This document shows, one piece after another, positions 17,301 through 37,610 of a stretch of 64,000 nucleotides of DNA. This stretch comes from Streptomyces sp. NBC_01591 (GTDB lineage Bacteria; Actinomycetota; Actinomycetes; Streptomycetales; Streptomycetaceae). The number at the start of each line of letters is the position of its first letter. Position 1 is the first letter of the stretch. Location: NCBI RefSeq assembly GCF_035918155.1, contig NZ_CP109327.1, forward strand, positions 1,240,001 through 1,304,000, written 5' to 3'. Under the pieces are notes generated by a model. The model saw only the letters and a program-made list of their open reading frames with translations, was not told the origin of the DNA and did not search any database. The position numbers and the translations under genes are program-made.

Positions 17301-19829
17301 ATGGAGGAGAAATCCTTCGACGTCTTGACGCCCGGGCCGAATGAATCCGCAATCGGCATACGCAAGAACACCAGCCCGGAGACCGGCATCGAGAAGAACC
17401 TCGCCGAGGTGCTGGCTGACGTCATGTGTGTCGAACGGGTGTCGATCGACGGCCATTTCTTTGATGACCTCGGCGCCAACTCATTGGTAATGGCCCATTT
17501 CTGCGCACGAGTCAGAAAGCGGGCGGACCTTCCCTCGGCGTCGATGAAGGACATCTACCGGCACCCGACGATCCGCAGCCTGGCGACGGGCCTCGCGAAT
17601 GCCGCGCCCGTCGAGCCGTCGGTCCCGGCGCCGACCGAGGTGGTGACCCCGGTCCGCACGGTGCGGTACGTCCTCTGCGGAACCCTGCAGTTCCTGCTTT
17701 TCCTGGGATACTCCTTCCTCGCCGGACTTGTTGCCGACCGAGGATATGCATGGGTCTCCGCCGGGTCGGGTGTGATCGATGTCTACCTGCGGTCGTTCGT
17801 CTTCGGAGGCGTCGGCTTCGTCGGTCTGTGCACCTTCCCCATCGCGGCCAAATGGCTCCTCATCGGCCGTTGGAAATCACGCGAGTTTCCGGTCTGGGGT
17901 CTGACCTATCTGCGCTTCTGGACCGTCAAGGTGCTGATCCACGCCAACCCGATGATCTTCTTCGTCGGCAATCCCTTGTACGTGCTGTACCTGCGGGCGC
18001 TGGGCGCACGGATCGGCAAAGGGGTCACGATCCTCTCCCGCAACGTTCCGGTCTGCCCCGACCTGCTCACGGTCGGCGCCGGCACGGTGATCCGCAAAGA
18101 CTCGTTCTTCCTCTGCTACCGGGCGCACGCCGGCCGTATCCAGACCGGCCGGGTCACCCTCGGCCGGGACGTGTTCATCGGCGAGAAGACCGTGCTCGAC
18201 ATCGGCACGTCGATGGGCGACGGGGCTCAACTCGGCCACACGTCCACGCTGTACAGCGGCCAGGCGGTCCCGGGCGGTCAGCGCTGGCACGGGTCCCCGG
18301 CACAGCTCACGCAGCACGACTACCTGCGGATCGGGCCGGCCACATGCGGCACCCTGCGCCGGGCCGGCTTCGGCCTCATCACCGTGCTTCAGTTGCTCTT
18401 CCTCTACGTGCCACTGGCTGTCGGGGGCGTGTACATGCTGGTGACCTTGGTCCCGGCGCTGCACAACCGGCTGGGTCCGGGCACGGTGGAGCTCGCATCG
18501 CCGTATCTCTACATCGACGCGCTGGTCCTTTCCCTGCTGCTGTTCTTCGGCTTCGTAGTCGTGGGCCTGGTCGTGATGTTCACCGTTCCGCGCCTGCTGA
18601 ACCTGGTCGTCAAGCCGGACAAGGTCTATCCGCTGTACGGGTTTCATTACTCGACGCACCGGGCGATCGGGCGCATGACCAACATCAAGTTCTTCACATG
18701 GCTGTTCGGTGACAGCTCCTACATCGTCCACTACCTGCGCGGCATCGGATACGACTTGTCCCGAGTCGAGCAGACCGGGTCGAACTTCGGCACGGAAGTG
18801 CAACACGAGACCCCGTTTCTGTGCTCAGTCGGGAGCGGGACAATGGTCGCCGACGGGCTCTCCATCATCAACGCCGACTATTCGAGCACGTCCTTCCGGG
18901 TGTCCCGGGCCTCGATCGGGTCATACAACTTCCTCGGGAACAACATCGCCTATCCCTCGGGGGCCAGGACAGGCGAGAACTGTCTCCTCGCGACGAAGGT
19001 GATGGTTCCGCTCGAAGGCGAGGTGCGCGAGGGGGTGGGCCTGCTCGGCTCGCCGTGCTTCGAGATTCCCCGGTCGGTCGAGCGCGATTCCCGGTTCGAC
19101 CATCTTCGCACCGGCGACGAGTTGCGCCGCAGCCTCGCTGCGAAGAACCGCTACAACATCCGCTCGATGGCCTTCTTCCTGCTCGTGCGGTGGCTGCACT
19201 TCTTCGTGCTCACGATGTTCGGCCTGGCGAATGCCGAGCTGTACGACAGCTACGGGAACGTACTGATCGCCGCGTTCCTGGTGTTCAGCCTCGGGTTCAC
19301 CGCTGTCTACTTCGTACTGGTGGAGCGCGGCATCGCGGCATTCCGCGCGCTGCAACCGAAGGTGTGCTCAATCTACGACCCCTACTTCTGGTGGCACGAG
19401 CGCCTCTGGAAGGTGCCCGATACCTACCTCAACATCTTCAACGGCACCCCTTTCAAGAACGTGATCTGGCGGATGCTGGGGGTTCGGATCGGCAGCAGGG
19501 TCTTCGATGACGGCTGCTATTTGACGGAGCGGACGCTCACCACCATCGGGAGCGACTGCACGCTCAATGCCGGAAGCAAGATCCAGTGCCACTCGCAGGA
19601 GGACGGCACCTTCAAGTCCGATCGCAGCACCATCGCCCCCGGCTGCACCCTCGGTGTGGGAGCCCACGTCCACTACGGCGTGACGATGGGCGACGGCGCG
19701 GTACTCGCCCCCGACTCCTTCCTCATGAAAGGCGAAGAAGTCCCCCAGCACGCACGCTGGGGAGGAAACCCCGCCGCGGAGATGCGAGACGCCCCCAATC
19801 AGCCCGAGGCGCTGACGCGGAAGGGATAG
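17301..19829 (+). CDS. Pls/PosA-type membrane protein: carrier domain plus three left-handed beta-helix domains
   Basis: An 842-residue protein matching the part of poly-epsilon-lysine synthetase that follows its adenylation domain. Residues about 30-100 are a carrier (T) domain; FFDDLGANSLV holds the phosphopantetheine Ser61. Then come three pairs of membrane spans (about 121-185, 356-430 and 619-678), each followed by a soluble domain with hexapeptide-repeat character (IGKGVTILSRN, VSRASIGSYNFLGNN and IAPGCTLGVGAHV among others). In Pls these tandem domains catalyse amide-bond formation during polymer growth. There is no A domain in this protein. The adenylating partner is presumably the next gene, 45 bases downstream. 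The ATG at 17301 follows AGGAGCTCGC. Confidence 0.85.
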   Translation: MEEKSFDVLTPGPNESAIGIRKNTSPETGIEKNLAEVLADVMCVERVSIDGHFFDDLGANSLVMAHFCARVRKRADLPSASMKDIYRHPTIRSLATGLANAAPVEPSVPAPTEVVTPVRTVRYVLCGTLQFLLFLGYSFLAGLVADRGYAWVSAGSGVIDVYLRSFVFGGVGFVGLCTFPIAAKWLLIGRWKSREFPVWGLTYLRFWTVKVLIHANPMIFFVGNPLYVLYLRALGARIGKGVTILSRNVPVCPDLLTVGAGTVIRKDSFFLCYRAHAGRIQTGRVTLGRDVFIGEKTVLDIGTSMGDGAQLGHTSTLYSGQAVPGGQRWHGSPAQLTQHDYLRIGPATCGTLRRAGFGLITVLQLLFLYVPLAVGGVYMLVTLVPALHNRLGPGTVELASPYLYIDALVLSLLLFFGFVVVGLVVMFTVPRLLNLVVKPDKVYPLYGFHYSTHRAIGRMTNIKFFTWLFGDSSYIVHYLRGIGYDLSRVEQTGSNFGTEVQHETPFLCSVGSGTMVADGLSIINADYSSTSFRVSRASIGSYNFLGNNIAYPSGARTGENCLLATKVMVPLEGEVREGVGLLGSPCFEIPRSVERDSRFDHLRTGDELRRSLAAKNRYNIRSMAFFLLVRWLHFFVLTMFGLANAELYDSYGNVLIAAFLVFSLGFTAVYFVLVERGIAAFRALQPKVCSIYDPYFWWHERLWKVPDTYLNIFNGTPFKNVIWRMLGVRIGSRVFDDGCYLTERTLTTIGSDCTLNAGSKIQCHSQEDGTFKSDRSTIAPGCTLGVGAHVHYGVTMGDGAVLAPDSFLMKGEEVPQHARWGGNPAAEMRDAPNQPEALTRKG

Positions 19830-19874
19830 CAGCTCCGCCCCTGTCAGCGCGGAACAGCACGGTATCGAAGGCTA

Positions 19875-22800
19875 ATGGAGAGAGACGGCCAGATGGGAAT
19901 GCAAGCGCAGGCCGACCGGGAATTCTGGCGCGATGTGCTCGTCGCCGGTGGATTCACCGAAACCCCGCGGTGGACGCTCGATCCGGTGAACGGCGTCGGG
20001 GAACACGAGGCGCCGGTCCCGGACGACGTCGTGGCGGCGTTGGGCCGGCTGGCCAAGGGCCTGGCGGTGCCGCTCGACTCGGTGCTGCTGGCAGCGCACG
20101 CCAAGGTGATCGCCGCGCTGTCCGGCGAGCACGAGGTCACGACCGGATATGTCAGTGCGGAGGGCGGCCGGCCGCTGCTCTGCCGGCTGACGACCGAGCC
20201 CGACTCGTGGCGGACGCTGCTGCTGGATGCCCATCGAGCCGCGTCGGATTTGCTGTCGCACGCGGACTTCCCGGTCGATGAGCTCAGGCGCGAACTGCGC
20301 CTGGCCGAGCCGTCGATCGAGGCCGTGTTCGATCCGCATGGAATAGGCGGCGAAGTCGCCGGTAACACCATGCTGTGGGTGGGGTTTTCGCAACGCGGCG
20401 ACCACCTTGTGTTGCGGCTGCGGTATCGGACCGACGCGCTCGACGAGGACTGCGCCGTCAGGATCGCCGGATACCACCTCACCGCACTCGCGCTGATCGC
20501 CACCGATCCGGACGCCGAGCACGGGCGACAGAGCCTGCTCTCCGCCGAGGAACTCCACTTCCAGCTCGAAGAACTCGCCGGTCCACACCGGGAACTGCCG
20601 GACCGCCGATTCCACGAACTGTTCGAGCAGCGGGTGGCGTCACACCCGGACGCCGTCGCCGCGGTGCATGGGGAGCTGCAACTGACGTACCGGGAACTCA
20701 ACGCGCGCGCCAACCGGGTGGGACGAGCACTGCTGGCGCGGGGGCTGCGCCCCGAGGGTGTCGTCGCGGTGGTGACCGAGCGCAACCTGGACTGGATGGT
20801 CGCCGTCCTCGCGGTCTTCAAGGCCGGCGGCGTGTACCTGCCCATCGAGCCACATTTCCCGGCCGACCGTCTCGCGACCATGCTCTCCCGTGCCGCATGC
20901 GGGCTCGTGCTGACCGAACCGGGCAGCACCTCCACGCTCGACCAGGCCCTCGACTCACTGCCCGGGGTCCGGAAGCTCTTCGTCGGCGCAGCCTACGAGG
21001 AAGACCATGCCGACGGTGATCTGGACCTCCACGTCGCACCGGACCAGCTCGCCTACATCTACTTCACCTCCGGCTCCACAGGTGAGCCCAAGGGCGCGAT
21101 GTGCGAGCACGCGGGCATGCTGAACCACCTGTACGCCAAGATCGACGACCTGGAGATCGGCGAGGGACAGGTGGTCGCCCAGACCGCACCCCAATGCTTC
21201 GACATCTCGCTGTGGCAGCTGGTGTCCGGGCTCCTGGTCGGGGGGCGGACCCTGCTGGTGGAGCAGGAGGTGATCCTGAACGTCCAGCGGTTCGTCGACA
21301 AGATCGTCGACGGCCGGGTCGCCGTCCTCCAGGTCGTACCCTCCTACCTGGACGTGGTCGTGTCCTGGCTGAAGCAGCACCCCCGCGAGCTGCCGGACCT
21401 GCGGTGCGTGTCGGTCACGGGCGAGGCGTTGAAGAAGGAGCTCGTGCAGCGCTGGTTCGCCGCCCAGCCCGGGATCAAGCTGGTCAACGCCTACGGGCTG
21501 ACCGAGACCTCGGACGACACCAACCACGAGGTCATGGACCGCGTGCCCGACGGAGACCGGGTGCTGCTGGGTCCCGCGGTCAACAACGTGCACGTCTACG
21601 TCGTCGACGAGCACCTGGTCCCGGTGCCGCTCGGAGCCCCCGGTCTGATCGTCTTCTCCGGCGTCTGCGTCGGCCGCGGATACGTCAACGACCCCGAGCG
21701 CACCCGGCAGGCCTACCTGGCCGATCCATACCGTGAGGGCGCCCGGCTCTACCGGGGCGGCGACTACGGCCGCTGGACGCCCGAGGGAAAGCTGGAGTTC
21801 CTCGGCCGCCGCGACACCCAGGTGAAGATCCGTGGCTTCCGGATCGAGATCGGCGAGATCGAGAACACCCTGTTGCAGGTGCCCGGCGTTCGCGACGGTG
21901 CGGTCGTGGTCGCCGAGCGGGCCGACCAGAGCAAGCACCTGGTGGCGTTCTACTCCGGTCGGCGGCCGCTCGAGGTCGACGTCATGCTGGACCGGCTGGG
22001 TGGGTCACTGCCCGCGTACATGGTCCCGTCGGCCTTTCACTGGCGGGAGACTCTGCCGCTGACGGCCAACAGCAAAATCGACAGAAGGACTCTGCAGGCA
22101 CTCGCCGGAGAACTCGATGTCGTCCGGGACGACTACCGCGCGCCGGATACGCCGACCGAACACCAGTTGGCGGCCGCATGGGCGAAGGTGCTCGGCATCC
22201 CGCAGAACCAGATCGGACGGCGGGACCACTTCTTCGACCGGGGCGGCACGTCGCTGTCGGCAGTAAAGCTGGCCATCGTCCTGGACCGTGCGGTGTCCCT
22301 CAAGGACGTCACCCGTCACCCGATCCTCGCCGATCTGGCCCGGCTGGTCGACGGCAGGTCCGAGCGGCGTGCCGGGCTGCTTCAGCCGCTGTCGGAATCG
22401 GACGGTGCGCAGACCGCAGCCCTGGTGTGCTTCCCCTACGCCGGCGGCAACGCGGTGAACTTCCAGCCGATGGCCAAGGCGCTGCCGGACGGTGGACCGG
22501 CGGTCTACGCCGTCGAGCTGCCCGGTCACGACATGGCCGCCGAGAGCGAGCCGCTCGCTCCGATGACACAGGTGGTCGAGCAGGTCGTCGACGAGATCAC
22601 CGGGCGTGGCCTGACCAGGGTCCTGCTGTGGGGCCACTCCTCGGGCACCGCGTTGGCCTTGGAGACGGCCAGAATGCTGCGGGAGCGCGGGGTGGACGTC
22701 CAACGGGTGTTCCTCGGCGCGCAACTGCTCGGTGACGCCGACGACCGGCGCGCCACCATCGCCGAGCTGACCGGGCGGAGCAACGCCGAGATCGCCGCGC

Positions 22801-23147
22801 ACCTGAGCACGGACGGCGGCTGCACCGCACTCGGTGAGCTGGGTGCGCAGCACGCCGAGCACGTCGGCGCCGCCTACCGGCACGACTGCGTGTCCGCTCA
22901 CCACTACTTCACCGACGCCCTGGAGCACCCGCCCGCGCAGAAGCTGTCCGCGCCGGTCACCGTGGTCGTTGCCGCGGACGACCCGAGCACGGCGGAGTAC
23001 CCGCGCCGGTACCGCGACTGGCAGCTTCTGGCCGGACAGGTAGACCTGCACGAGCTCGCCGACGGCGGCCACTACTTCCTGCGTACCCGTCCGGCCGAGG
23101 CAGCAAAGGCCGTGCTGCAGGCCACCGAATTGTTCGCTTCTTCCTGA
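19875..23147 (+). CDS. NRPS with partial C, A, T and TE domains; probable 2,3-diaminopropionate activation
   Basis: A 1090-residue single-module enzyme. Residues about 1-240 look like only the C-terminal half of a condensation domain (no HHxxxDG). The A domain spans about 245-755: YIYFTSGSTGEPKGAM (A3), FDISLWQ (A4), NAYGLTETSDD (A5), YRGGDYGRW (A7) and NSKIDRR with the A10 Lys. The T domain contains FFDRGGTSLSAVK, with Ser793. A type-II-like thioesterase covers about 860-1090: CFPYAGG, GHSSG (Ser922) and a late GGHYFL His. By eye the pocket residues read D-I-W-Q-S-T-A-D-D-K, acidic enough for a basic amino acid, but this alignment is tentative. Neighbouring SbnA/SbnB-like enzymes point to L-Dap as substrate. 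Confidence 0.88.
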   Translation: MERDGQMGMQAQADREFWRDVLVAGGFTETPRWTLDPVNGVGEHEAPVPDDVVAALGRLAKGLAVPLDSVLLAAHAKVIAALSGEHEVTTGYVSAEGGRPLLCRLTTEPDSWRTLLLDAHRAASDLLSHADFPVDELRRELRLAEPSIEAVFDPHGIGGEVAGNTMLWVGFSQRGDHLVLRLRYRTDALDEDCAVRIAGYHLTALALIATDPDAEHGRQSLLSAEELHFQLEELAGPHRELPDRRFHELFEQRVASHPDAVAAVHGELQLTYRELNARANRVGRALLARGLRPEGVVAVVTERNLDWMVAVLAVFKAGGVYLPIEPHFPADRLATMLSRAACGLVLTEPGSTSTLDQALDSLPGVRKLFVGAAYEEDHADGDLDLHVAPDQLAYIYFTSGSTGEPKGAMCEHAGMLNHLYAKIDDLEIGEGQVVAQTAPQCFDISLWQLVSGLLVGGRTLLVEQEVILNVQRFVDKIVDGRVAVLQVVPSYLDVVVSWLKQHPRELPDLRCVSVTGEALKKELVQRWFAAQPGIKLVNAYGLTETSDDTNHEVMDRVPDGDRVLLGPAVNNVHVYVVDEHLVPVPLGAPGLIVFSGVCVGRGYVNDPERTRQAYLADPYREGARLYRGGDYGRWTPEGKLEFLGRRDTQVKIRGFRIEIGEIENTLLQVPGVRDGAVVVAERADQSKHLVAFYSGRRPLEVDVMLDRLGGSLPAYMVPSAFHWRETLPLTANSKIDRRTLQALAGELDVVRDDYRAPDTPTEHQLAAAWAKVLGIPQNQIGRRDHFFDRGGTSLSAVKLAIVLDRAVSLKDVTRHPILADLARLVDGRSERRAGLLQPLSESDGAQTAALVCFPYAGGNAVNFQPMAKALPDGGPAVYAVELPGHDMAAESEPLAPMTQVVEQVVDEITGRGLTRVLLWGHSSGTALALETARMLRERGVDVQRVFLGAQLLGDADDRRATIAELTGRSNAEIAAHLSTDGGCTALGELGAQHAEHVGAAYRHDCVSAHHYFTDALEHPPAQKLSAPVTVVVAADDPSTAEYPRRYRDWQLLAGQVDLHELADGGHYFLRTRPAEAAKAVLQATELFASS

Positions 23148-23170
23148 GTGTCAGTTGAAAGGAGATCGAG

Positions 23171-24175
23171 ATGTCATCCACATCCACGACGTCGCTGGTC
23201 GACGTGGAACTGGAATCCGGCAAACCCCCACGGCTGCGGGCCGAGGTCACCGGCGACACGTCGGCGTGGGCGGCCGAGCACCGGGACGCCCTGCGCGCAG
23301 TCGTCGCCGAGCACGGTTCGGTCCTGGTCCGCGGCCTCGGGCTGCGTGACGCGGCCGAGACCGGAGCCGTCTTCTCGAAGCTGGCCTCCGGTCTGATGAC
23401 CGAGCGGGAGGCCTTCGCACCCCGGCAGGCCTACTCCGACGGGGTGTACTCCTCATCGAAGTGGCCGCCGAACCAGCCAATGTGCATGCACCACGAACTG
23501 AGCTACACGCTTGAGTTCCCCGGCCTGATGATGTTCGCCTGTCTCAGCGCTCCCACCGACGGCGGGGCGACTGCGGTGGCCGACTCACCGACCGTGCTCG
23601 CCGCGCTGCCCACCGAGTTGACCGAGCGGTTCGAGCGCGAGGGCTGGCTGCTGACCCGCAGCTACAACGACGAGATCGGCGCGTCCGTCGCCGAGGCCTT
23701 CGGAACCGAGGACCGGGGCGCCGTCGAGCGCTACTGCCGCGCCAACGCGATCACGTTCGAGTGGCAGCCCGACGGTGGACTGCGCACCAGACAGCGCCGC
23801 AGCGCCGTGGTGCGCCACCCGGTCACCGGCCGACGCTGCTGGTTCAACCAGATCGCGTTCCTCAACGAGTGGACGATGGCCCCCGAGGTGCACGAGTACC
23901 TGGTGGACGTCTACGGCGCCGACGGGCTGCCGTTCAACACCCGCTTCGGCAACGGCGACCCGATCGGCGAGGACGTCGTGCAGCTACTCAACAGCGTCTA
24001 CGAGGCGAACACCGCACGCGAACCGTGGCAGGCCGGCGACCTGATGCTCGTCGACAACGTCCGCACAGCGCACAGCAGAGAGCCCTTCGAGGGACCGCGC
24101 GAGGTGCTCGTCGCCATGGCCGAACCGGTGCGTCTGGACGACTGCTCGCCGACCGTAGAGGTGGCTACGCGATGA
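23171..24175 (+). CDS. TauD/SyrP-like Fe(II)/2-oxoglutarate oxygenase
   Basis: A 334-residue non-haem iron oxygenase. HHELSY near residue 107 supplies the His-x-Glu iron ligands, and DNVRTAHSREPF near residue 300 the distal His and the 2-oxoglutarate-binding Arg. HxE rather than HxD is common in the SyrP-type amino-acid hydroxylase branch. In such loci these enzymes usually hydroxylate an amino acid while it is bound to the carrier protein. Here the substrate would be carrier-bound Dap or the finished product. AGGAGATCGAG precedes the ATG at 23171. The 3' end overlaps the next start by four bases (ATGA). Confidence 0.88.
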   Translation: MSSTSTTSLVDVELESGKPPRLRAEVTGDTSAWAAEHRDALRAVVAEHGSVLVRGLGLRDAAETGAVFSKLASGLMTEREAFAPRQAYSDGVYSSSKWPPNQPMCMHHELSYTLEFPGLMMFACLSAPTDGGATAVADSPTVLAALPTELTERFEREGWLLTRSYNDEIGASVAEAFGTEDRGAVERYCRANAITFEWQPDGGLRTRQRRSAVVRHPVTGRRCWFNQIAFLNEWTMAPEVHEYLVDVYGADGLPFNTRFGNGDPIGEDVVQLLNSVYEANTAREPWQAGDLMLVDNVRTAHSREPFEGPREVLVAMAEPVRLDDCSPTVEVATR

Positions 24176-25242
24176 CCACTGTCGATTCCACCGCGAGAGA
24201 GCCCGCAAGGGTCGCACCGATCACCGTGCCACCGTTCGCGGTGATCTCCGGTGCCCAGGTCCAGCGCACGCTGCACGGATGCGAGAAGCGGATCACGGAG
24301 CTGGTCGAGGCCACCTACCGGGTGCACGGCGCCGGTGATTCGGTGAACCCGCCGTCGTACTTCCTGCGTTTCCCCGACCGCCCGTCCTCCCGGATCATCG
24401 CGCTGCCCGCCTCGATCGGCGGGAAGACACGGGTGGACGGCCTGAAGTGGATCTCCAGCTTCCCGGAGAACGTGACGGCCGGCATCCCAAGGGCATCGGC
24501 GGTGCTGATCCTCAACGACCACGACACCGGCTACCCGTTCGCCTGTCTGGAGAGTTCGATCATCAGCGCCACCCGGACGGCCGCGTCGGCGGCGTCGGCG
24601 GCCGACTGGCTCAGCCGTGACCGGACGCGACCGACGCGCGTCGGGTTCTTCGGGGTGGGCTTGATCGCCCGCTACATCCACACCTTCCTGGTCAGCACCG
24701 GCTGGTCGTTCGACGAGATCGGCGTACATGACCTGTCCCCCGACAGCGCGGCAGGCTTCCGGTGCTATCTGGAGCAGTCGGACACCGTCGGCCGGATCAC
24801 CGTGCACGACAGCGCCGAGCAGTTGATCCGAAACAGCGACATGGTCATCTTCGCCACGGTCGCCGGTCAACCGCACGTCAGTGACCTGTCATGGTTCGCA
24901 CACAATCCGCTGGTGCTGCATGTGTCGCTGCGCGACCTCGCGCCGGAGATCCTGCTCGCCTCGACCAACATCGTCGATGACGTCGAGCACTGCCTCAAGG
25001 CCGACACGTCGCCGCATCTGGCCGAGCAACTCACGGGCAACCGGGACTTCCTACACGGCACGTTGGACGACGTGATGGCCGGACGGGTGACGGTGCCGAC
25101 GGACCGGCCGGTGGTGTTCTCGCCCTTCGGCCTCGGGGTGCTCGACCTCGCGGTGGGCAAGTACGTGTACACCGAAGTGGCCCGCTGCGGAGAGTTGCAC
25201 GTCGTCGACGACTTCTTCCACGAACTGAGCCGGTACGGATGA
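24172..25242 (+). CDS. sbnB: SbnB-like dehydrogenase for L-2,3-diaminopropionate synthesis (ornithine cyclodeaminase family)
   Basis: A 356-residue member of the ornithine cyclodeaminase/mu-crystallin family, closest in my reading to SbnB of staphyloferrin B biosynthesis. Features include VDGLKWISSFPENV, ILNDHDTGYPFACLESSIISATRTAA and the nucleotide-binding GFFGVGLIARYI near residue 155. SbnB oxidatively hydrolyses N-(1-amino-1-carboxy-2-ethyl)glutamate with NAD+ to give L-Dap and 2-oxoglutarate. The released 2-oxoglutarate could feed the adjacent oxygenase. It is translationally coupled to the oxygenase gene. The call is strengthened by the SbnA-like gene that follows. Confidence 0.85.
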   Translation: MTTVDSTAREPARVAPITVPPFAVISGAQVQRTLHGCEKRITELVEATYRVHGAGDSVNPPSYFLRFPDRPSSRIIALPASIGGKTRVDGLKWISSFPENVTAGIPRASAVLILNDHDTGYPFACLESSIISATRTAASAASAADWLSRDRTRPTRVGFFGVGLIARYIHTFLVSTGWSFDEIGVHDLSPDSAAGFRCYLEQSDTVGRITVHDSAEQLIRNSDMVIFATVAGQPHVSDLSWFAHNPLVLHVSLRDLAPEILLASTNIVDDVEHCLKADTSPHLAEQLTGNRDFLHGTLDDVMAGRVTVPTDRPVVFSPFGLGVLDLAVGKYVYTEVARCGELHVVDDFFHELSRYG

Positions 25243-25348
25243 GCCGGCCGGGAGCGCAGGAGGCTCCTTCTTCGAGACTGATCCCAGGAGAGACCATCAG
25301 TCACGTCGCAGCAGGTCCTGACACACGAGACAGCGGCCGCTGACACAG

Positions 25349-25378
25349 GACCCCGTCCCGCCGGTTGGAGACGGGGTC
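25349..25378. terminator. Hairpin between the sbnB-like and sbnA-like genes
   Basis: GACCCCGTC (25349-25357) pairs with GACGGGGTC (25370-25378) around a 12-base loop, within the 209-base gap. It lies about 75 bases before the sbnA-like start, so it may be a partial terminator or an attenuator rather than the end of the operon. There is no T-tract. Confidence 0.4.
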
Positions 25379-25451
25379 TCGCCCGCACAAGCGAGGAGCC
25401 CGCCCACAGCCGGATGGTTCCGAGAGCGCTCTGCTCCAGACAGAGGAGACC

Positions 25452-26462
25452 ATGGTGCCCGTCATTTCCACTCCCTACGCCTTCAACGAAGAGGATCTCT
25501 ATGTCGACCTCCAGTCGATCTTCGGGCACTCGCTCTTCCTGAAGTGTGAGGGCTTCAACTTCGCCGGCTCGATCAAGTTGAAGGCCGCGACCGAGATGGT
25601 GGAGGCCGCTGAGCGGGATGGAATCCTGACGCCGGAATCGATCCTGGTCGAGTCCTCGTCCGGAAACCTCGGCGTGGCGCTGAGCGTGATCGCGGCGAGC
25701 AAGGGATACCGGTTCCTGTGTGTGACGGACTCCCGCGGCAATCTGTCGAACAGAATGATGATGGAGGCGTTGGGCAGCCAGGTGCATGTGATCGCCGAAC
25801 AGGAGGCCAACTCCGGCTTTCTCGGCGCGCGGCTCGATTACCTCCGCGCGCTGTGCGCCTCCGACGACCGGTATGTGTGGCTCAGTCAGTACACCAATCC
25901 GAGCAACTGGAAGGCGCACTACCGCACGACCGCGCCAGAGGTCGCCCGACAGTTCCCGCAGCTGGACGTGCTGTTCGTCGGAGCCGGCACCACCGGGACC
26001 CTGATGGGCTGTGCGCGCTACTTCCGGGGATGGCACCGGCCGGTGCGGATCATCGCGGTGGACAGCGTCGGCTCGGTGTCCTTCGGCGGTTCGCCGGGCC
26101 GCCGGATGATTCCCGGTCTGGGCATGAGCATGCGCCCGCCGCTGCTCGACGAGTCCTATGTCGACGAGGTGATTCGTGTCGAGGAGGCGGACACCATACG
26201 CGCCTGCCATCGTCTGGCCAGGCGCGGATTCCTGTTCGGCGGCTCCACCGGCACGGTAATCAGCGGCGCAACGGACTGGTTGGCCCGGCATGACGCGCGC
26301 GAACTCACCGCAGTGGCCGTCGGCCCGGACCTCGGCGAGCGCTACCTCGACACCATCTACCAGACCAACTGGCTGCAGGATCTCTACGGCGAGGACGTGC
26401 TCGACTCCGACAAGGAGGCCGCCGATTCCTGGGCAGCCGCCCCCCCGCCGACCATACGGTAG
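25452..26462 (+). CDS. sbnA: SbnA-like PLP enzyme (cysteine synthase family) for L-2,3-diaminopropionate synthesis
   Basis: A 336-residue fold-type II PLP enzyme. FNFAGSIKLKAA holds the PLP Lys (about residue 42), ESSSGNLGVALS is the substrate loop, and GAGTTGTLMGC binds the PLP phosphate. SbnA condenses O-phospho-L-serine with L-glutamate to form N-(1-amino-1-carboxy-2-ethyl)glutamate, the substrate of SbnB. The frame is open from 25365, but the ATG at 25452 is preceded by AGAGGAG and matches the family N-terminus. With the SbnB-like gene it forms a complete L-Dap pathway from primary metabolites. Confidence 0.85.
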   Translation: MVPVISTPYAFNEEDLYVDLQSIFGHSLFLKCEGFNFAGSIKLKAATEMVEAAERDGILTPESILVESSSGNLGVALSVIAASKGYRFLCVTDSRGNLSNRMMMEALGSQVHVIAEQEANSGFLGARLDYLRALCASDDRYVWLSQYTNPSNWKAHYRTTAPEVARQFPQLDVLFVGAGTTGTLMGCARYFRGWHRPVRIIAVDSVGSVSFGGSPGRRMIPGLGMSMRPPLLDESYVDEVIRVEEADTIRACHRLARRGFLFGGSTGTVISGATDWLARHDARELTAVAVGPDLGERYLDTIYQTNWLQDLYGEDVLDSDKEAADSWAAAPPPTIR

Positions 26463-32393: not shown

Positions 32394-33179
32394 CTACCGC
32401 TGCTTCGCCAGCCAGTCGTACCAGTGGGCCAGGCCCTCGCCGGTGGTCGCGGAGACAGTCAGCACACACACGTCCGGGTTCACCGAGCGCGCGTGCCGCA
32501 CGCACTGCTCTACGTCGAAGTCGACATAGGGCAGCAGATCGGACTTGTTGATCAGGATCAGGTCGGCAGCGGCAAACATGTACGGGTACTTCAGCGGCTT
32601 GTCCGTGCCCTCGGTGACCGAGATGATCACGACCTTGCTGCGCTCCCCCAGGTCGAACAGGGCAGGGCACACCAGGTTTCCGACGTTCTCCACCATGAGC
32701 AGCGACCCCTCGGCCGGGGACAGCGCCGTGAGGGCGTCCCGCATCATCTCCGCGTCGAGGTGGCACCCCGCCCCCGTGTTCACCTGCACCACGGCGCAGC
32801 CCGTACGCCTGATCCGGTCGGCGTCGAGCCTCGTCTCCTGATCGCCCTCAACGACGGCCACCGGCCGGCGGCCGCCGAGGTCGGTGACGGCGCGTTCCAA
32901 CAGGGTTGTCTTGCCCGCGCCCGGCGAGCTCATCACATTCACCGCCACGACGCCGCGGTCGGCCATCCACGTCCGGTTGCGCTCCGCGAGCAGGTCGTTC
33001 TTGGCGAGTACCTTCTGCTCGATGGTGACGGTCTCACCGGCTCCACTCGGCTGACGACGCTCGTGCGGATGAGGGTGCGGGTCCGGATGCGGATGTCCGT
33101 GGTCCGGTGCACCATCCTCCCGCAGCATCACGATCCTGGTCCCGCCGGACTCCTCGGCACAGCCGCAGGTACCGCACAT
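32394..33179 (-). CDS. hypB: HypB, GTPase for nickel delivery to hydrogenase
   Basis: A 261-residue metallochaperone. The N-terminus MCGTCGC is the high-affinity nickel site, followed by a His-rich linker HGHPHPDPHPHPH that may store nickel. The G domain shows the P-loop SSPGAGKTTLL, EGDQET, NTGAGCHLD, ENVGNLVCP and NKSDLLP. It works with HypA to insert nickel into the large subunit. It is transcribed leftward together with hypA, which starts just upstream with a 3-base gap. Confidence 0.97.
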   Translation of the reverse strand: MCGTCGCAEESGGTRIVMLREDGAPDHGHPHPDPHPHPHERRQPSGAGETVTIEQKVLAKNDLLAERNRTWMADRGVVAVNVMSSPGAGKTTLLERAVTDLGGRRPVAVVEGDQETRLDADRIRRTGCAVVQVNTGAGCHLDAEMMRDALTALSPAEGSLLMVENVGNLVCPALFDLGERSKVVIISVTEGTDKPLKYPYMFAAADLILINKSDLLPYVDFDVEQCVRHARSVNPDVCVLTVSATTGEGLAHWYDWLAKQR

Positions 33180-33182
33180 GGT

Positions 33183-33512
33183 TCAGCCCACTTCCATGGA
33201 GACGATCTGCAGTTCCTGTCCCGATGTGATCTGCACATCCGCGCTGCCGCAGGGACACAGCAGAATCAGGTCGGTCAGGGTGAATTCGACGGCACAGGTG
33301 CGGCAGCGGCCGGCGCCGGGCGGCTGGTCGATCTCCAACTGCGCACCCTCGGCGGCCGTTCCCTCCGTGACCAGGCCGAAGCAGAACCGCATCGAGTCGG
33401 GCACCACGGCCGTGAGCACGCCGACGCGGACGCGGACCGATCGGACCGGACGCCCCTCGGCGCGTTCGCACACCGAGTCGACGACGCTCTGTGTGATGGC
33501 CAGCTCGTGCAC
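33183..33512 (-). CDS. hypA: HypA, nickel chaperone for hydrogenase
   Basis: A 109-residue protein. The GTG at 33512 gives MHELAITQSVVDSV, with the nickel-binding His2; the longer open frame up to 33617 lacks family similarity. The zinc site is RCRTC followed by CPCGS. It pairs with HypB (3-base gap) to deliver nickel. It is divergent from the hydrogenase structural genes over a 259-base region. Confidence 0.95.
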   Translation of the reverse strand: MHELAITQSVVDSVCERAEGRPVRSVRVRVGVLTAVVPDSMRFCFGLVTEGTAAEGAQLEIDQPPGAGRCRTCAVEFTLTDLILLCPCGSADVQITSGQELQIVSMEVG

Positions 33513-33771
33513 CGGTGCCTCGTCCTTCCGCGGGTGGCTCCGACCGTAGGGCCACGGGAGGACCGTGGCACCGTCCGACGGGACCGGTCCCCCGCCCGGA
33601 CCACCCGAGCGGCCCACCGTATGCCGTCATTCGGGCCCCGGTGACGCGGCGGGACGGCGAATTCCCCTGTTGCCGGTGCCCGTGAATCGAGGCGTGATGG
33701 TAGCAATGTGCGCATACCCACCCGTGGGGGCCGATGGCCGGTAGGCCGTCATCCTGAAAGGCGACACTGCC
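33513..33771. promoter_or_regulatory. Divergent control region between hypA and the hydrogenase subunit operon
   Basis: This 259-base region must contain the promoters for hypAB (left) and for the long hydrogenase operon (right). The final stretch before the small subunit has GAAAGG at a suitable ribosome-binding position. I found no convincing -35/-10 pair or operator by eye. Confidence 0.4.
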
Positions 33772-34827
33772 ATGCCGACAGAGGAAGCGGTAAAGGCGGA
33801 GGACACACTGATCCACGTGCTGTGGATCAACGCAGGACTGAGCTGTGACGGCGATTCCGTCTCCCTGACCGCCGCCACGCAGCCGAGCATCGAGGAGATC
33901 GCGCTCGGCGCCCTGCCGGGACTTCCGCAGGTCGCCGTCCACTGGCCGCTCATCGATTTCGAATGCGGTCCGAACGGCGGCGCCGATGATTTTCTCGAAT
34001 GGTTCTTCAAGGCCGATCGCGGAGAACTGGAACCGTTCGTTCTGGTGGTAGAGGGATCCATTCCGAACGAGCGGCTGCACGACGAGGGTTACTGGTGCGG
34101 ATTCGGCAACGATCCCGCCACCGGCCAGCCGATGACGACCAGCGAGTGGCTCGACCGGCTGGCTCCGAAGGCGACCGCGGTCGTCGCGGCCGGCACCTGC
34201 GCGACGTACGGCGGCATCCATGCCATGGCGGGCAACCCGACCGGCGCAATGGGGGTTCCCGACTACCTGGGCTGGGACTGGAAGTCCAAGGCCGGCATCC
34301 CGATCGTGTGCGTCCCCGGGTGCCCGATCCAGCCGGACAACCTCTCGGAGACGCTCACCTACCTGCTCTACATGGCCACCGACCAGGCCCCGATGATCCC
34401 GCTCGACGACGCGCTGCGGCCGACGTGGCTGTTCGGGTCGACGGTCCACGAGGGCTGCGACCGAGCCGGATACTACGAGCAGGCCGACTTCGCGACGGAG
34501 TACGGCTCGCCGAAGTGCATCGTCAAGCTGGGCTGCTGGGGCCCCGCGGTCAAGTGCAACGTGCCCAAGCGCGGCTGGATGAACGGCATCGGCGGCTGCC
34601 CCAACGTCGGTGGCATCTGCATCGGCTGCACCATGCCCGGGTTCCCGGACAAGTTCATGCCGTTCATGGACGAGCCCCCCGGAGGAAAGCTCTCGACCAA
34701 CGCGGTCGGGCTGTACGGGTCGACGATGCGGCGGCTGCGCCAGCTCACCACCCACACCCTGGACCGCGAACCGAAATGGCGTAAGCCCGGCAGGAAACTC
34801 ACGACCGGCGCCACACGCACCTGGTGA
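33772..34827 (+). CDS. hhyS: Group 1h (group 5) [NiFe] hydrogenase small subunit
   Basis: A 351-residue electron-transfer subunit. GLSCDGDS replaces the usual Cys-x-x-Cys of the proximal cluster by Cys-x-x-Asp, a hallmark of the actinobacterial high-affinity group. Further ligands lie in AAGTCATYGG, VCVPGCPI and the C-terminal CDRAGYYEQ...KCIVKLGCWGPAVKC and CPNVGGICIGCTMPGFPD stretches. No Tat signal is present, so the enzyme should face the cytoplasm. It would pass electrons from H2 oxidation at trace (atmospheric) levels toward the respiratory chain. First gene of the rightward operon. Confidence 0.95.
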   Translation: MPTEEAVKAEDTLIHVLWINAGLSCDGDSVSLTAATQPSIEEIALGALPGLPQVAVHWPLIDFECGPNGGADDFLEWFFKADRGELEPFVLVVEGSIPNERLHDEGYWCGFGNDPATGQPMTTSEWLDRLAPKATAVVAAGTCATYGGIHAMAGNPTGAMGVPDYLGWDWKSKAGIPIVCVPGCPIQPDNLSETLTYLLYMATDQAPMIPLDDALRPTWLFGSTVHEGCDRAGYYEQADFATEYGSPKCIVKLGCWGPAVKCNVPKRGWMNGIGGCPNVGGICIGCTMPGFPDKFMPFMDEPPGGKLSTNAVGLYGSTMRRLRQLTTHTLDREPKWRKPGRKLTTGATRTW

Positions 34828-34872
34828 GTGACCGCGTACACCACCGCAACGGACAGAAAGAAGAGGCGGCCA

Positions 34873-36666
34873 ATGACCGCGACGCAGCACAAAGGTGCCG
34901 GAGGCGGCCAGGGAAAGAACGACCTGGTCGAAATGGCGTGGGATCCCATCACCCGGATCGTCGGCAGCCTGGGTATCTACACGAAGATCGACTTCAAGCA
35001 GAAAGTGGTCGCCGAGTGTCACAGCACCAGCTCCATCTTCCGGGGCTATTCGGTCTTCATGAAGGGAAAGGACCCGCGGGACGCGCACTTCATCACGAGT
35101 CGCATCTGCGGAATCTGCGGTGACAACCACGCTACATGTTCCTGTTACACGCAGAACATGGCGTACGGGGTGAAGCCGCCGCACCTCGGCGAATGGATCG
35201 TGAATCTCGGCGAGGCCGCAGAGTACATGTTCGACCACAACATCTTCCAGGAGAACCTGGTCGGGGTCGACTACTGCGAGAAGATGGTCGCGGAGACCAA
35301 CCCCGGGGTGCTGGAACAGGCCAACCGCACCCCCTCCCCGCACGCCGACGCGCACGGATACAAGACGATCGGCGACATCATGCGATCGCTGAATCCGTTC
35401 ACCGGCGAGTTCTACCGCGAGGCGCTCCAGGTCAGCCGGATGACCCGGGAGATGTTCTGCCTGATGGAGGGCCGGCACGTCCACCCCTCCACGCTCTATC
35501 CCGGCGGGGTCGGCACCGTGGCGACCATCCAGCTGATGACGGACTACATCACCCGCCTCCAGCGGTACGTCGAGTTCATGAAGAAGGTCGTGCCGATGCA
35601 CGACGATCTCTTCGACTTCTTCTACGAAGCCCTGCCGGGGTACGAACAGGTCGGCAACCGGCGCATCCTGCTGGGCTGCTGGGGCTCCTTCCAGGACCCG
35701 GAGCACTGCAACTTCGAGTACAAGGACATGACCGACTGGGGCCGGAAGATGTACGTCACCCCCGGTGTCGTCGTCGACGGGAAGCTGGTCACCACCGACC
35801 TGGTGAAGATCAACCTCGGCATCCGGATCCTGCTCGGTTCGTCGTACTACAACGACTGGGACGAGCAGGAGACCTTCGTCTCCCACGACCCCCTCGGCAA
35901 TCCGGTGGACCGGCGCCACCCGTGGAACCAGCACACCAACCCGCAGCCGCAGAAGCGGGACCTGGACGACAAGTACAGCTGGGTCATGTCACCCCGGTGG
36001 TTCGACGGCAAGGACTACCTGGCGCTCGACACGGGCGGCGGGCCGCTCGCGCGGCTGTGGACCACCGCGCTGGCCGGTCTGATCGACATCGGCTACATCC
36101 AGGCCACCGGCCACAGCGTCAAGATCAACCTCCCCAAGACCGCCCTCAAGGGGCCGGTGGAGCTGGAGTGGCACGTCCCGAAGTGGAGCAACACCATCGA
36201 GCGCAACCGTGCGCGCAGCTACTTCCAGGCCTACGCGGCCGCCTGCGCGCTTCACTTCGCGGAGAAGGCGCTCGTGGAGATCCGCTCCGGGAACACCAAG
36301 ACCTGGGAGAAGTTCGAGGTGCCCGAGGAGAGCGTGGGCTGCGGGTTCAGCGAGGCGGTCCGCGGTGTCCTCTCCCACCACATGGTGATCCGGGACGGCA
36401 AGATCGCCAACTACCACCCGTACCCGCCGACTCCGTGGAATGCGAGCCCCCGCGACACGTACGGCACGCCCGGCCCCTACGAGGACGCCGTGCAGGGCCA
36501 GCCGATCTTCGAGGAGAACGACCGGGAGCACTTCAAGGGCATCGACATCATGCGCACGGTGCGCAGCTTCGACCCCTGTCTGCCCTGCGGTGTACACATG
36601 TATCTCGGCGAGGGCAAGAAGCTGGAACTTCTGCACTCCCCCACCCAGTCCGCGGGCAGTGAGTGA
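34873..36666 (+). CDS. hhyL: Group 1h (group 5) [NiFe] hydrogenase large subunit
   Basis: A 597-residue catalytic subunit. The nickel-binding motifs are RICGICGDNHATCS (L1) and DPCLPCGVH (L2) near the C-terminus. After that His a tail of about 22 residues (MYLGEGKKLELLH...) remains, to be removed by the maturation protease at 40670. A GTG at 34828 is also in frame, directly after the small-subunit stop; I prefer the ATG at 34873, which has GAGGCGG upstream. It oxidises H2 at the NiFe(CN)2CO site assembled by the Hyp proteins of this window. Confidence 0.95.
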   Translation: MTATQHKGAGGGQGKNDLVEMAWDPITRIVGSLGIYTKIDFKQKVVAECHSTSSIFRGYSVFMKGKDPRDAHFITSRICGICGDNHATCSCYTQNMAYGVKPPHLGEWIVNLGEAAEYMFDHNIFQENLVGVDYCEKMVAETNPGVLEQANRTPSPHADAHGYKTIGDIMRSLNPFTGEFYREALQVSRMTREMFCLMEGRHVHPSTLYPGGVGTVATIQLMTDYITRLQRYVEFMKKVVPMHDDLFDFFYEALPGYEQVGNRRILLGCWGSFQDPEHCNFEYKDMTDWGRKMYVTPGVVVDGKLVTTDLVKINLGIRILLGSSYYNDWDEQETFVSHDPLGNPVDRRHPWNQHTNPQPQKRDLDDKYSWVMSPRWFDGKDYLALDTGGGPLARLWTTALAGLIDIGYIQATGHSVKINLPKTALKGPVELEWHVPKWSNTIERNRARSYFQAYAAACALHFAEKALVEIRSGNTKTWEKFEVPEESVGCGFSEAVRGVLSHHMVIRDGKIANYHPYPPTPWNASPRDTYGTPGPYEDAVQGQPIFEENDREHFKGIDIMRTVRSFDPCLPCGVHMYLGEGKKLELLHSPTQSAGSE

Positions 36667-37610
36667 TGGCGCGGGAGGAGTCCCCGGCCACGCCCGACTG
36701 GCGGACGACCGGTGAACGCATCGACACCCTGATCGCCGCCAGCGGCTCGGGCGGCGCGGTCGCCCGCGAGCGCAGCGAGGAACTGGTCCGGCTCGTCACC
36801 GACTTCTACGGTGCCGGGCTGGAACGGCTGCTCGACCTTGTGCACGAGCAGGGGCGACTGGACGACGACGTCCTGGCCGCCCTGGCCGACGACGAGCTGG
36901 TGGCCGGCGTCCTGCTGGTGCACGGGCTGCATCCATACGGCGTGGAGACCCGGGTCGAGCGGGCGCTGGAGAGCGTACGACCGTATCTGGGGTCGCACGG
37001 CGGTGATGTGGAGCTGCTCGCCGTCACCGACGAGGGCACCGTCCGGTTGAGGCTGCTGGGCAGTTGTGACGGCTGCCCGTCGTCCTCGGTCACGCTCAAG
37101 CTGGCCGTGCAGGGTGCTGTGGAGGCGGCGGCGCCGGAGATCACCTCGATCGAGGTCGAGACCGCGGCCGACGAGGACGCCGGGGCAGCGGGGCCGCTGG
37201 TGCCGGTGGACTCGCTGTTCGCCCGGCTGCACGCGGAGTCCGGGACGGCCGGCGACGACGGCGCGTCGTGGAAGGTCGTGCCCGAGCTGTCGGGGCTGGA
37301 GTCCGGCGCAGTGACGCGGGTCGACGTCGGCAGGATGCCGGTGGTGGCGTGCCGCGCGGGTGCGGGTCTCTTCGCCTTCGAGGACCGGTGCGCACGCTGC
37401 GAGCGGCCGTTCGACGGCGCCACACTGGCACGGCGGCTGGGCGGGAGCTCCGGTGACGCGATCCTGCGCTGCGCCGGCTGCCATGCGCACTACGACGTGC
37501 GACGGGCCGGGGTCTGCCTCGACGAGGACGGCGGGCATCTGACGCCGCTGCCCCTGCTGTCGGACGGTGCCGCGGTCTCGGTGTCGGTCCCCGCGGCGGT
37601 GGCGCCGTGA
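36666..37610 (+). CDS. NifU-like / Rieske-like hybrid protein
   Basis: A 314-residue protein overlapping the large-subunit stop. Residues about 95-150 match the NifU C-terminal scaffold: SHGGDVELL and LLGSCDGCPSSSVTLK with its CxxC. Residues about 215-305 resemble a Rieske/non-haem ferredoxin fold: CRAGAGLFAFEDRCARCERPF and RCAGCHAHYDVRRAG. The first ligand pair is Cys-x-x-Cys rather than Cys-x-His, so it may bind zinc or a variant FeS cluster. It is a standard neighbour of this hydrogenase type, with a role in FeS assembly or electron transfer assumed but not shown. Confidence 0.8.
   Translation: MAREESPATPDWRTTGERIDTLIAASGSGGAVARERSEELVRLVTDFYGAGLERLLDLVHEQGRLDDDVLAALADDELVAGVLLVHGLHPYGVETRVERALESVRPYLGSHGGDVELLAVTDEGTVRLRLLGSCDGCPSSSVTLKLAVQGAVEAAAPEITSIEVETAADEDAGAAGPLVPVDSLFARLHAESGTAGDDGASWKVVPELSGLESGAVTRVDVGRMPVVACRAGAGLFAFEDRCARCERPFDGATLARRLGGSSGDAILRCAGCHAHYDVRRAGVCLDEDGGHLTPLPLLSDGAAVSVSVPAAVAP

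Follow-up and report, generated by a model that had tools for sequence, protein, structure and literature searches.

The window, a stretch of 64,000 nucleotides from Streptomyces sp. NBC_01591, harbors five consecutive forward-strand genes at positions 17301-26462, all of which were recovered by open reading frame and domain searches. Domain models confirmed the gene order given in an earlier note on this DNA: a membrane protein of the Pls/PosA type with a carrier domain (T-Pls), an adenylation-carrier-thioesterase (A-T-TE) protein, a TauD-like oxygenase, and SbnB- and SbnA-type enzymes of 2,3-diaminopropionate (Dap) synthesis.

The first gene (17301..19829) encodes the 842-residue T-Pls, in which a carrier domain (17400..17588; PF00550, residues 34-96, 30.6 bits) with Ser61 in the motif FFDDLGANSL precedes a terminal domain (17673..19775) that matches TIGR02353 over its full length (residues 125-825) at 867.6 bits against a cut-off of 423.1. 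Hydropathy analysis placed six hydrophobic segments in three pairs (124-142/165-188, 359-377/408-426 and 624-642/654-672); after each pair comes a region holding a histidine (H313, H502 and H764) that did not vary in the alignments of 26 and 21 rows, and the domain search revealed hexapeptide-repeat acyltransferase signatures. Pls and PosA proteins carry fused A and T domains before the terminal domain; T alone was found here. The domain search detected no AMP-binding domain in the 842-residue protein, and the A domain is encoded by the next gene, which bears out the view that the membrane half has its own carrier and that the A domain sits in another protein. The carrier serine is retained in 81/81 membrane-protein rows. 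T-Pls grouped with DFEC-type fused synthetases (ectB adjoins one of these, at L149) and also with an A-T-T-T-Pls protein from Pseudonocardia; PDAP/PDAB-type codes occur among the fused proteins most closely related to it. A poly-lysine-type reading was rejected because T-Pls lies far from the fused synthetases with the code DAESIGTVVK, which are of the poly-lysine type (best PDB match of the L089 protein, 7wew, 555.4 bits).

The second gene was originally delimited at 19875-23147, giving 1090 residues with AMP-binding (250-603), AMP-binding_C (661-734), PP-binding (764-824) and thioesterase (850-1071) domains; because the database copy has 1084 residues, we place its start at 19893 (19893..23147). 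Its N-terminal region (19893..20580) matches PF00668 weakly, at 18.8 bits and below the cut-off, over profile positions 397-451, while the same region of a relative (P0027) matches positions 190-279. The HHxxxDG motif is absent before residue 250, and with a weak match confined to later positions of the Condensation model, "half a C domain" was an apt description. The A domain (20622..22100; PF00501, PF13193) carries the code DIWQSTADDK, read at positions that we take from GrsA numbering, in 78 of 80 rows; the remaining two are truncated and agree where readable. Position 1 is thus Asp, and position 3 is Trp instead of Glu. Asp at position 1 and Glu at position 3 are described as conserved in Pls-type synthetases in the available text of PMC10522769; lacking this Glu, the A domain does not belong to the poly-lysine type, and its interpretation as a transplanted poly-amino-acid A domain is not supported. 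No matching published Dap code was found in the literature searched, including the accessible part of PMC12283262. Among the 11 A domains read near this genome's two other over-threshold SbnA genes, none has a DIWQ code, so Dap-linked A domains need not resemble DIWQ. The adjoining carrier domain (22164..22346) retains its serine in all 78 readable rows; both carriers also persist in a natural fusion, in support of the proposal of two carrier proteins. The thioesterase domain (22422..23087; PF00975, 60.8 bits) has a GHSSG motif, and its Ser, Asp and His are conserved in 61/61 rows reaching those columns. It is present here, as first reported, and yet dispensable, because a variant comprising 16 of the 80 loci lacks it; in one set of 15 block loci, the best match ended before the TE in 8.

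The third gene (23171..24175) encodes a TauD/At3g21360-type Fe(II)/2-oxoglutarate oxygenase (PF02668, 152.1 bits) with the fold of the TauD family and its facial triad, HxD/E...H, as H107-x-E109...H301; the structure model is of moderate confidence only (pLDDT 72.8). It is as conserved as the other block genes, both across the 80 loci and in 150 genomes, and comes after the A-T protein in almost every locus, including loci without T-Pls. At L184, a more distant relative is flanked by a TE on one side and an A-T protein with another code on the other. Hydroxylation of Dap, as suggested in the earlier note, is chemically awkward as stated: hydroxylation of free Dap at either carbon that bears an amine yields an unstable hemiaminal, and an acylated amine would be needed; otherwise, desaturation or loss of ammonia is expected.

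The last two genes would supply Dap. SbnA (25452..26462), a PLP enzyme for step 1, most likely starts at the ATG at 25452, which is preceded by GAGGAG, and not at 25365; it scores 381.2 bits against TIGR03945 (cut-off 349.95) and, among solved structures, matches SbnA (5d87, 201.8 bits) ahead of CmnB (177.1) and the best cysteine synthase (162.8). SbnB (24172..25242), the dehydrogenase for step 2, overlaps the TauD gene through ATGA and scores 418.3 bits against TIGR03944 (cut-off 326.9); its best PDB match, 4m54 (114.9 bits), is listed as a putative ornithine cyclodeaminase and is presumably the S. aureus SbnB entry, the next being an alanine dehydrogenase (88 bits). Both Dap equivalog models are thus exceeded. 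Kinship with non-Dap enzymes, raised earlier as a possible refutation, does not apply because both proteins are closest to Dap enzymes.

Conservation was assessed in a set of 80 loci, retained out of 146 relatives of T-Pls. All five genes occur in 74 of them and are colinear on one strand in 73; SbnA lies upstream of the rest of the block in one locus (L077), and at least one gene is missing within the fetched DNA in L010, L042, L052, L070, L079 and L080, several of which lie at contig ends. Flanking genes of the window are conserved in a few close loci only, and both the upstream FAD oxidoreductase and epimerase genes and the downstream CBS and esterase genes were rejected as cluster members, most of the 80 loci being without them. 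A comparison of selected flanks (703 ORFs within 7 kb, with queries drawn from 19 loci) yielded no further gene common to more than 10 main-form loci; the variant without the TE has a common chromosomal neighborhood around the block. The window contains no tRNA gene, PADLOC returned no match for the two proteins submitted, and no publication describing this block was recognized in literature searches, which mostly missed subscription papers; the available text of PMC8117764 and PMC12858407 had no bearing on the block.

A census of 116 TIGR02353 genes in 150 sampled genomes of the same genus (three fragments below 700 aa counted apart) revealed that TauD adjoins 48 of 56 short-frame genes versus 1 of 57 long-frame genes. 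The block is common in Streptomyces and not a single oddity. One of the eight short-frame genes without adjoining TauD turned out to be a fused DAES synthetase truncated close to the end of a contig (G014, L094). Two genomes, G102 and G034, have TauD-SbnB-SbnA on other contigs (L213, L214) that break off within the A-T or TauD gene, so these are probably whole blocks cut by assembly, and G012 has TauD-SbnB elsewhere in its genome (L205). No partner genes were found in the DNA fetched around T-Pls in G111:C6, G034:C12 and G086:C6, nor around the A-less T-Pls genes of L080, L128, L140 and L141.

Natural fusions join the same components. One genome (G105, L206) encodes T-Pls-A-T-TauD in a single open frame of 2327 aa, which retains both carriers, lacks a TE and is followed by SbnB and SbnA; it is the sole long-frame TIGR02353 case with TauD in the census. 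Another (G064) has A-T-TauD in a 1190-aa frame adjoining T-Pls, SbnB and SbnA. Both fusions are known as open frames alone. Together, the colinear block, the linkage of TauD to short-frame genes and these fusions indicate that the five genes act together.

The A-T, TauD, SbnB and SbnA genes were also found in 10 examined loci that lack the membrane protein and hence constitute a portable cassette; for the same reason, the cassette alone does not imply a polymer. The code DIWQSTADDK was found in 15 of 18 examined loci, down to approximately 56% A-domain identity, with DIWQATCDDK in one of the rest and no such A domain in two. SbnB was not found in five loci (L196-L198, L200 and L203) that keep the A domain and oxygenase and contain an SbnA-like enzyme together with a lyase (5/5), a kinase (4/5) and an ATP-grasp match (4/5). 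A Kitasatospora plasmid locus (L147) has all four of these genes, and it and the five loci occupy two separate places on the TauD tree. That two different supply routes go with a single type of A domain and a single oxygenase is consistent with a shared amino acid, and retention of the A domain and oxygenase in SbnB-less lyase loci argues for carrier-bound, oxidized Dap.

Tethered amino acid oxidation modules, as in nikkomycin or syringomycin biosynthesis, combine an A-T protein, an oxygenase and a TE. The present block resembles them in its A-T(-TE) protein with a dedicated oxygenase and differs in having its own Dap supply and a membrane condensing protein. Dapdiamide clusters include acyl ligase and ATP-grasp ligase genes beside those for Dap, A-T protein and oxygenase; neither an acyl ligase (AMP-binding) nor an ATP-grasp family was detected among 20 neighboring ORFs scanned, and membership in this class was rejected on that ground. 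A plasmid locus of Pseudonocardia autotrophica (L146) likewise has TauD directly downstream of a Pls/PosA protein, but there an A domain and three carriers are fused before the membrane domain, and the stretch searched contains no SbnA or SbnB match. Like our block, dapdiamide biosynthesis combines Dap with an A-T protein that bears a carrier and with an Fe(II)/2-oxoglutarate oxygenase; there, according to the available text of PMC12451424, DdaC acts on a Dap derivative tethered to the DdaD carrier, which favors the analogous carrier-bound step proposed here. The membrane Pls half sets our block apart.

Published TIGR02353-family synthetases are single A-T-membrane proteins in the accessible portions of PMC4668381 and PMC10522769, in agreement with what the earlier note stated of poly-lysine and poly-Dap synthetases. 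T-Pls is like Pls, PDAP, PDAB and PosA synthetases in its full-length terminal domain, with six membrane segments arranged as three pairs and with hexapeptide-repeat regions, and in the carrier directly preceding that domain; it is unlike them in that the A domain lies outside the protein, the partner code lacks Glu at position 3, and an extra carrier, a TE and an oxygenase are present. The S. albulus PD-1 PDAP system likewise has a Pls-type membrane domain and obtains Dap from the cysteine synthase and ornithine cyclodeaminase homologues NjxA and NjxB, but its synthetase is a single 4,338-bp A-T-membrane gene, its Dap genes do not lie nearby, and the portions of PMC4668381 available mention neither TauD nor a TE. 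As far as the text of PMC10522769 extends, poly-lysine was not formed by the A and carrier domains on their own, and the family survey applied a length filter of 1100-1800 residues, which places 842-residue members outside it.

With slightly better than even confidence, we interpret the block as a two-part, trans-fed synthetase that makes an oligomer or polymer from Dap oxidized on a carrier, a reading favored by the grouping of the membrane half with PDAP/PDAB-type synthetases. By homology, O-phosphoserine and glutamate would be the precursors from which SbnA and SbnB make L-Dap. This Dap, very likely the substrate of the free-standing A domain, would be adenylated by it and loaded on the neighboring carrier, where the TauD-type enzyme would oxidize the tethered amino acid; oxidation of Dap on a carrier is itself likely. 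The oxidized (or mixed) aminoacyl unit may then pass onto the T-Pls carrier, or the A domain that serves the first carrier may also load this one in trans. T-Pls, with three hexapeptide-repeat modules and six membrane segments, would form repeated amide, probably isopeptide, bonds and deliver the product, an oligomer or polymer, at the membrane; the TE, in loci that have it, would serve optionally in editing or release. Condensation by the membrane half is probable, and a product of more than two residues has roughly even chances. Points against this reading are the A code, unlike any published Dap code found, the non-DIWQ A domains near the other SbnA genes, the A-less T-Pls genes with no partners in the fetched DNA, the cassette loci devoid of T-Pls, the instability expected of directly hydroxylated Dap and the moderate confidence of the TauD model. 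The split synthetase and the Dap genes of the initial reading are supported, while its A-domain type, its step from cassette to polymer and plain hydroxylation are not supported as stated.

The cassette might instead deliver one oxidized Dap unit for which T-Pls forms one or two amide bonds, giving a dipeptide or aminoacyl conjugate. Such a small molecule is a less likely outcome, suggested by the loci with the cassette and no T-Pls, where it is plausibly a building-block supply, and by the TE, reached in 58 loci, which could release short products; it fits poorly with the full-length terminal domain, with the T-Pls-A-T-TauD fusion devoid of a TE, and with the PDAP/PDAB-type codes of fused T-Pls relatives, which belong to published polymer makers (PMC10522769, available text). 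Plain or branched poly-Dap, with TauD confined to a minor task (end-capping or occasional modification, for example), appears improbable. The Dap genes, two carriers and Pls-type membrane half would suit a backbone and side-chain scheme, and PMC10522769 and PMC9606270 both cite a Streptomyces that produces a comb-like Dap polymer, but PMC10522769 assigns that polymer to a protein that combines adenylation, carrier and membrane domains, and TauD is conserved like the other genes, forms a fusion with the A-T protein in two genomes and follows it even where T-Pls is lacking. The hexapeptide-repeat acyltransferase signatures and predicted membrane segments of T-Pls could also reflect a transferase role, with oxidized Dap attached to a lipid, the wall or another acceptor in the envelope and not condensed with itself. 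We regard this as very improbable, given that characterized family members polymerize amino acids and that no acceptor-making gene is common to the loci compared.

The fuller form of the trans-fed synthetase reading, in which a portable Dap-activating and -oxidizing cassette tailors monomers on one carrier, ahead of or during their polymerization on another, and feeds a membrane polymerase that has lost its A domain, yielding a tailored isopeptide polymer widespread in Streptomyces, is offered tentatively, at somewhat less than even confidence. In known TIGR02353-family members, the amino acid is activated and polymerized by the same protein. If the reading is true, the membrane half would be shown to work in trans, and split activation with an interposed oxygenase would represent a natural way to functionalized polyamides; the tailored (oxidized) isopeptide polymer would be of a kind absent from the family products in the portions of the literature examined. 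The block makes the question of how the terminal domain takes over its substrate from a carrier directly testable, and the cassette provides a genome-mining handle for oxidized Dap in ordinary NRPS clusters.

Domain and NCBIfam profile searches bore out the five-gene description of the block that the earlier note had drawn from the sequence alone. The first gene encodes T-Pls (17301-19829), in which a carrier domain precedes the Pls/PosA terminal domain in complete form (TIGR02353, 867.6 bits; cut-off, 423.1); domain profile searches found no adenylation (A) domain. Its hydropathy profile revealed six segments arranged as three pairs, with a soluble region after each pair; one histidine in each soluble region (H313, H502, H764) is invariant across 26 rows. 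Profile searches placed a C-domain remnant, an A domain, a carrier (T) and a thioesterase (TE) together in the next protein (19893-23147). The TauD-family oxygenase (23171-24175) retains H107, E109 and H301 without exception in 31 rows, and across all loci these residues are conserved in 78/78, 77/77 and 75/76 readable rows, respectively. SbnB (24172-25242) and SbnA (25452-26462) both score above their NCBIfam cut-offs. The source genome measures 10.25 Mb, and the nearest named locus is that of Streptomyces atratus OK807 (95% T-Pls identity). Downstream, 32394-37610 encodes NiFe hydrogenase subunits, HypA- and CobW/HypB-type accessory proteins and a NifU-like protein, a region seemingly unrelated to the block.

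Species-representative genome contigs were scanned for T-Pls relatives, and the best 80 of 146 were retained. All five genes occur in 74 of these 80 loci, which extend to Kutzneria, Prauserella and Pseudonocardia, and in 73 of the 80 they are colinear on a single strand; the window's flanking genes, in the same comparison, recur in only a few close loci. The block is thus a conserved unit. In a genus survey of 150 sampled genomes, TIGR02353 exceeded its cut-off in 81, giving 116 matches. Of these, 56 lie in short frames (700-1199 aa; 48 genomes) and 57 in longer ones (53 genomes), and three are fragments. A window-type TauD gene (E <= 1e-100 to the window TauD, within 10 kb, same strand) accompanies 48 of the 56 short-frame genes and just one of the 57 long-frame genes. 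Among the eight short-frame genes lacking TauD, one is a fused synthetase cut short and two are probably blocks severed by contig ends. In some genomes the block is present two or three times (e.g., G101, G130, G144). Around four A-less T-Pls genes (L080, L128, L140, L141), the DNA examined contains neither A-T nor TauD nor Sbn genes. In genome G012, T-Pls and TauD-SbnB are about 5 Mb apart; the latter locus (L205, G012:C1:1073000-1092000) contains TauD and SbnB with the other block genes absent, and we read this block as scattered or decaying.

Natural fusions tie the components together. In genome G105 (L206:8164-15144, minus strand), a single open frame of 2327 aa runs through T, Pls terminal domain, C remnant, A, T and TauD, with both carrier motifs present, no TE within the fusion, and SbnB and SbnA following; it is the one TauD-associated gene among the 57 long-frame genes of the 150 genomes. 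In genome G064 (L207:3066-6635, plus strand), the A-T protein and TauD form one frame of 1190 aa adjoining T-Pls, SbnB and SbnA. Six further loci were examined on account of a long TauD frame or a contig end; there, TauD and A-T either occupy separate frames or are cut. Such gene fusions are a classic sign that the parts act in one pathway, and these two link T-Pls directly to the A-T/TauD pair.

The A-T/TauD/SbnB/SbnA cassette is also portable. All 19 TauD matches without a nearby T-Pls in the 150 genomes were examined: two (L213, L214; G102, G034) reach contig ends, and the other 17 are L182, L183 and L191-L205. The A-domain code in these 17 loci is DIWQSTADDK in 14 and DIWQATCDDK in one (L200), with no such A domain in two (L204, L205). 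Ten loci combine A-T, TauD, SbnB and SbnA without T-Pls (L182, L183, L191-L195, L199, L201, L202); neighbour typing placed L182 and L183 beside other NRPS genes, and L193, L199 and L201 contain additional A domains within the stretch.

At the Stachelhaus positions (GrsA numbering), the block A domain reads DIWQSTADDK in 78 of the 80 rows compared, which are the window and 79 loci; two truncated rows agree as far as they can be read. Among 36 fused synthetases of the genus whose codes were read, 33 show a DAESIGT pattern, two DFECLSV and one DFEYFGT; the 14 DAESIGT-pattern synthetases with a complete code read DAESIGTVVK, and a DAES-type A domain best matches 7wew, a solved poly-lysine synthase. 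A Skermanella plasmid (L149:4924-10466) carries a fused Pls/PosA synthetase with code DFECLSV adjoining ectB, a diaminobutyrate transaminase gene; this alphaproteobacterial locus probably serves poly-diaminobutyrate synthesis. PMC10522769 states that code position 2 is Phe in synthetases of the poly-Dap (poly-L-2,3-diaminopropionate) and poly-diaminobutyrate type, and that all such synthetases conserve Glu at position 3. The block A domain instead has Ile at position 2 and Trp at position 3, and so fails the family's defining feature as given there. Our literature search found no match to DIWQSTADDK among the published codes it located. In the window's own genome, two other SbnA genes above the NCBIfam cut-off lie near large NRPS genes (G000:C1:534276, G000:C2:423517); none of the 11 A domains read near them has a DIWQ code, so A domains tied to Dap need not carry this code.

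Five cassette loci (L196-L198, L200, L203) yielded no SbnB match; they contain an SbnA-like gene (about 30% identity) and, by best match per query, an argininosuccinate-lyase-like lyase (5/5), a GHMP-type kinase (4/5) and an ATP-grasp match (4/5). The SbnA-like, lyase, kinase and ATP-grasp genes are all present on a Kitasatospora plasmid (L147:11543-16240), and in L147 and L200 the SbnA-like enzyme is fused to the ATP-grasp ligase. Neither lyase nor kinase was found in the ten SbnA/SbnB cassette loci (E 1e-10, best match per query). We infer a second Dap route in which phosphoserine and aspartate would be joined and then cleaved by the lyase. All six lyase loci share the same A-domain type and TauD, and they fall in two places in the TauD tree, where starred branches force two changes. 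A single amino acid, Dap, would best account for two supply routes that share one type of A domain and one oxygenase.

Phylogenetic analysis of the membrane half (61 rows, midpoint root) put block T-Pls in one group with two plasmid-borne Pseudonocardia proteins and the fused synthetases of DFEC type; branches with 100/100 support set this group well apart from the poly-lysine type. Among fused relatives accompanied by TauD, the nearest is encoded on a P. autotrophica plasmid (L146:7189-12452): a single protein in which an A domain and three carriers precede the Pls terminal domain, TauD lying directly downstream. Judging by this architecture, the T-Pls lineage seems to have gained TauD and several carriers before or around the split (relevant forks 92/60 and 85/76).

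The most likely mode of action is a stepwise route: SbnA and SbnB would make Dap, the A domain would place it on the first carrier, TauD would oxidise it there, the unit would be handed to, or trans-loaded on, the second carrier on T-Pls, and the membrane domain would form the amide bonds. Against this reading stand the T-Pls genes without partners, the separation of T-Pls from TauD-SbnB in G012, an A code unmatched among the published codes located, and the differing codes near the two other SbnA genes. Hydroxylating free Dap directly on carbon yields an unstable hemiaminal, so desaturation, ammonia loss, or hydroxylation after acylation of the side-chain amine is the more likely outcome. Published precedents, as set out in parts of the respective papers, are DdaD/DdaC for a tethered Dap derivative with an oxygenase (PMC12451424) and AmbB/AmbE for trans loading (PMC4357302). 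TE is absent from a 16-locus variant sharing a chromosomal neighbourhood, and from 8 of a set of 15 block loci by best match. Among the 79 loci that have an A-T gene, TE is reached in 58; the remaining 21 comprise the 16 variant loci and five (L010, L042, L044, L047, L079) that may be cut or frame-broken. Its absence from the variant, the eight loci and the triple fusion indicates that TE release is not essential.

Plasmid relatives of T-Pls are already annotated as 'Pls/PosA family non-ribosomal peptide synthetase', so the kinship of the membrane protein is not new. Our literature search found no description of an A-less polymerase combined with a trans-acting A-T-TE protein, a tethered oxygenase and its own Dap supply. 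Each domain of the block is explained by known families; what is new is the system-level arrangement.
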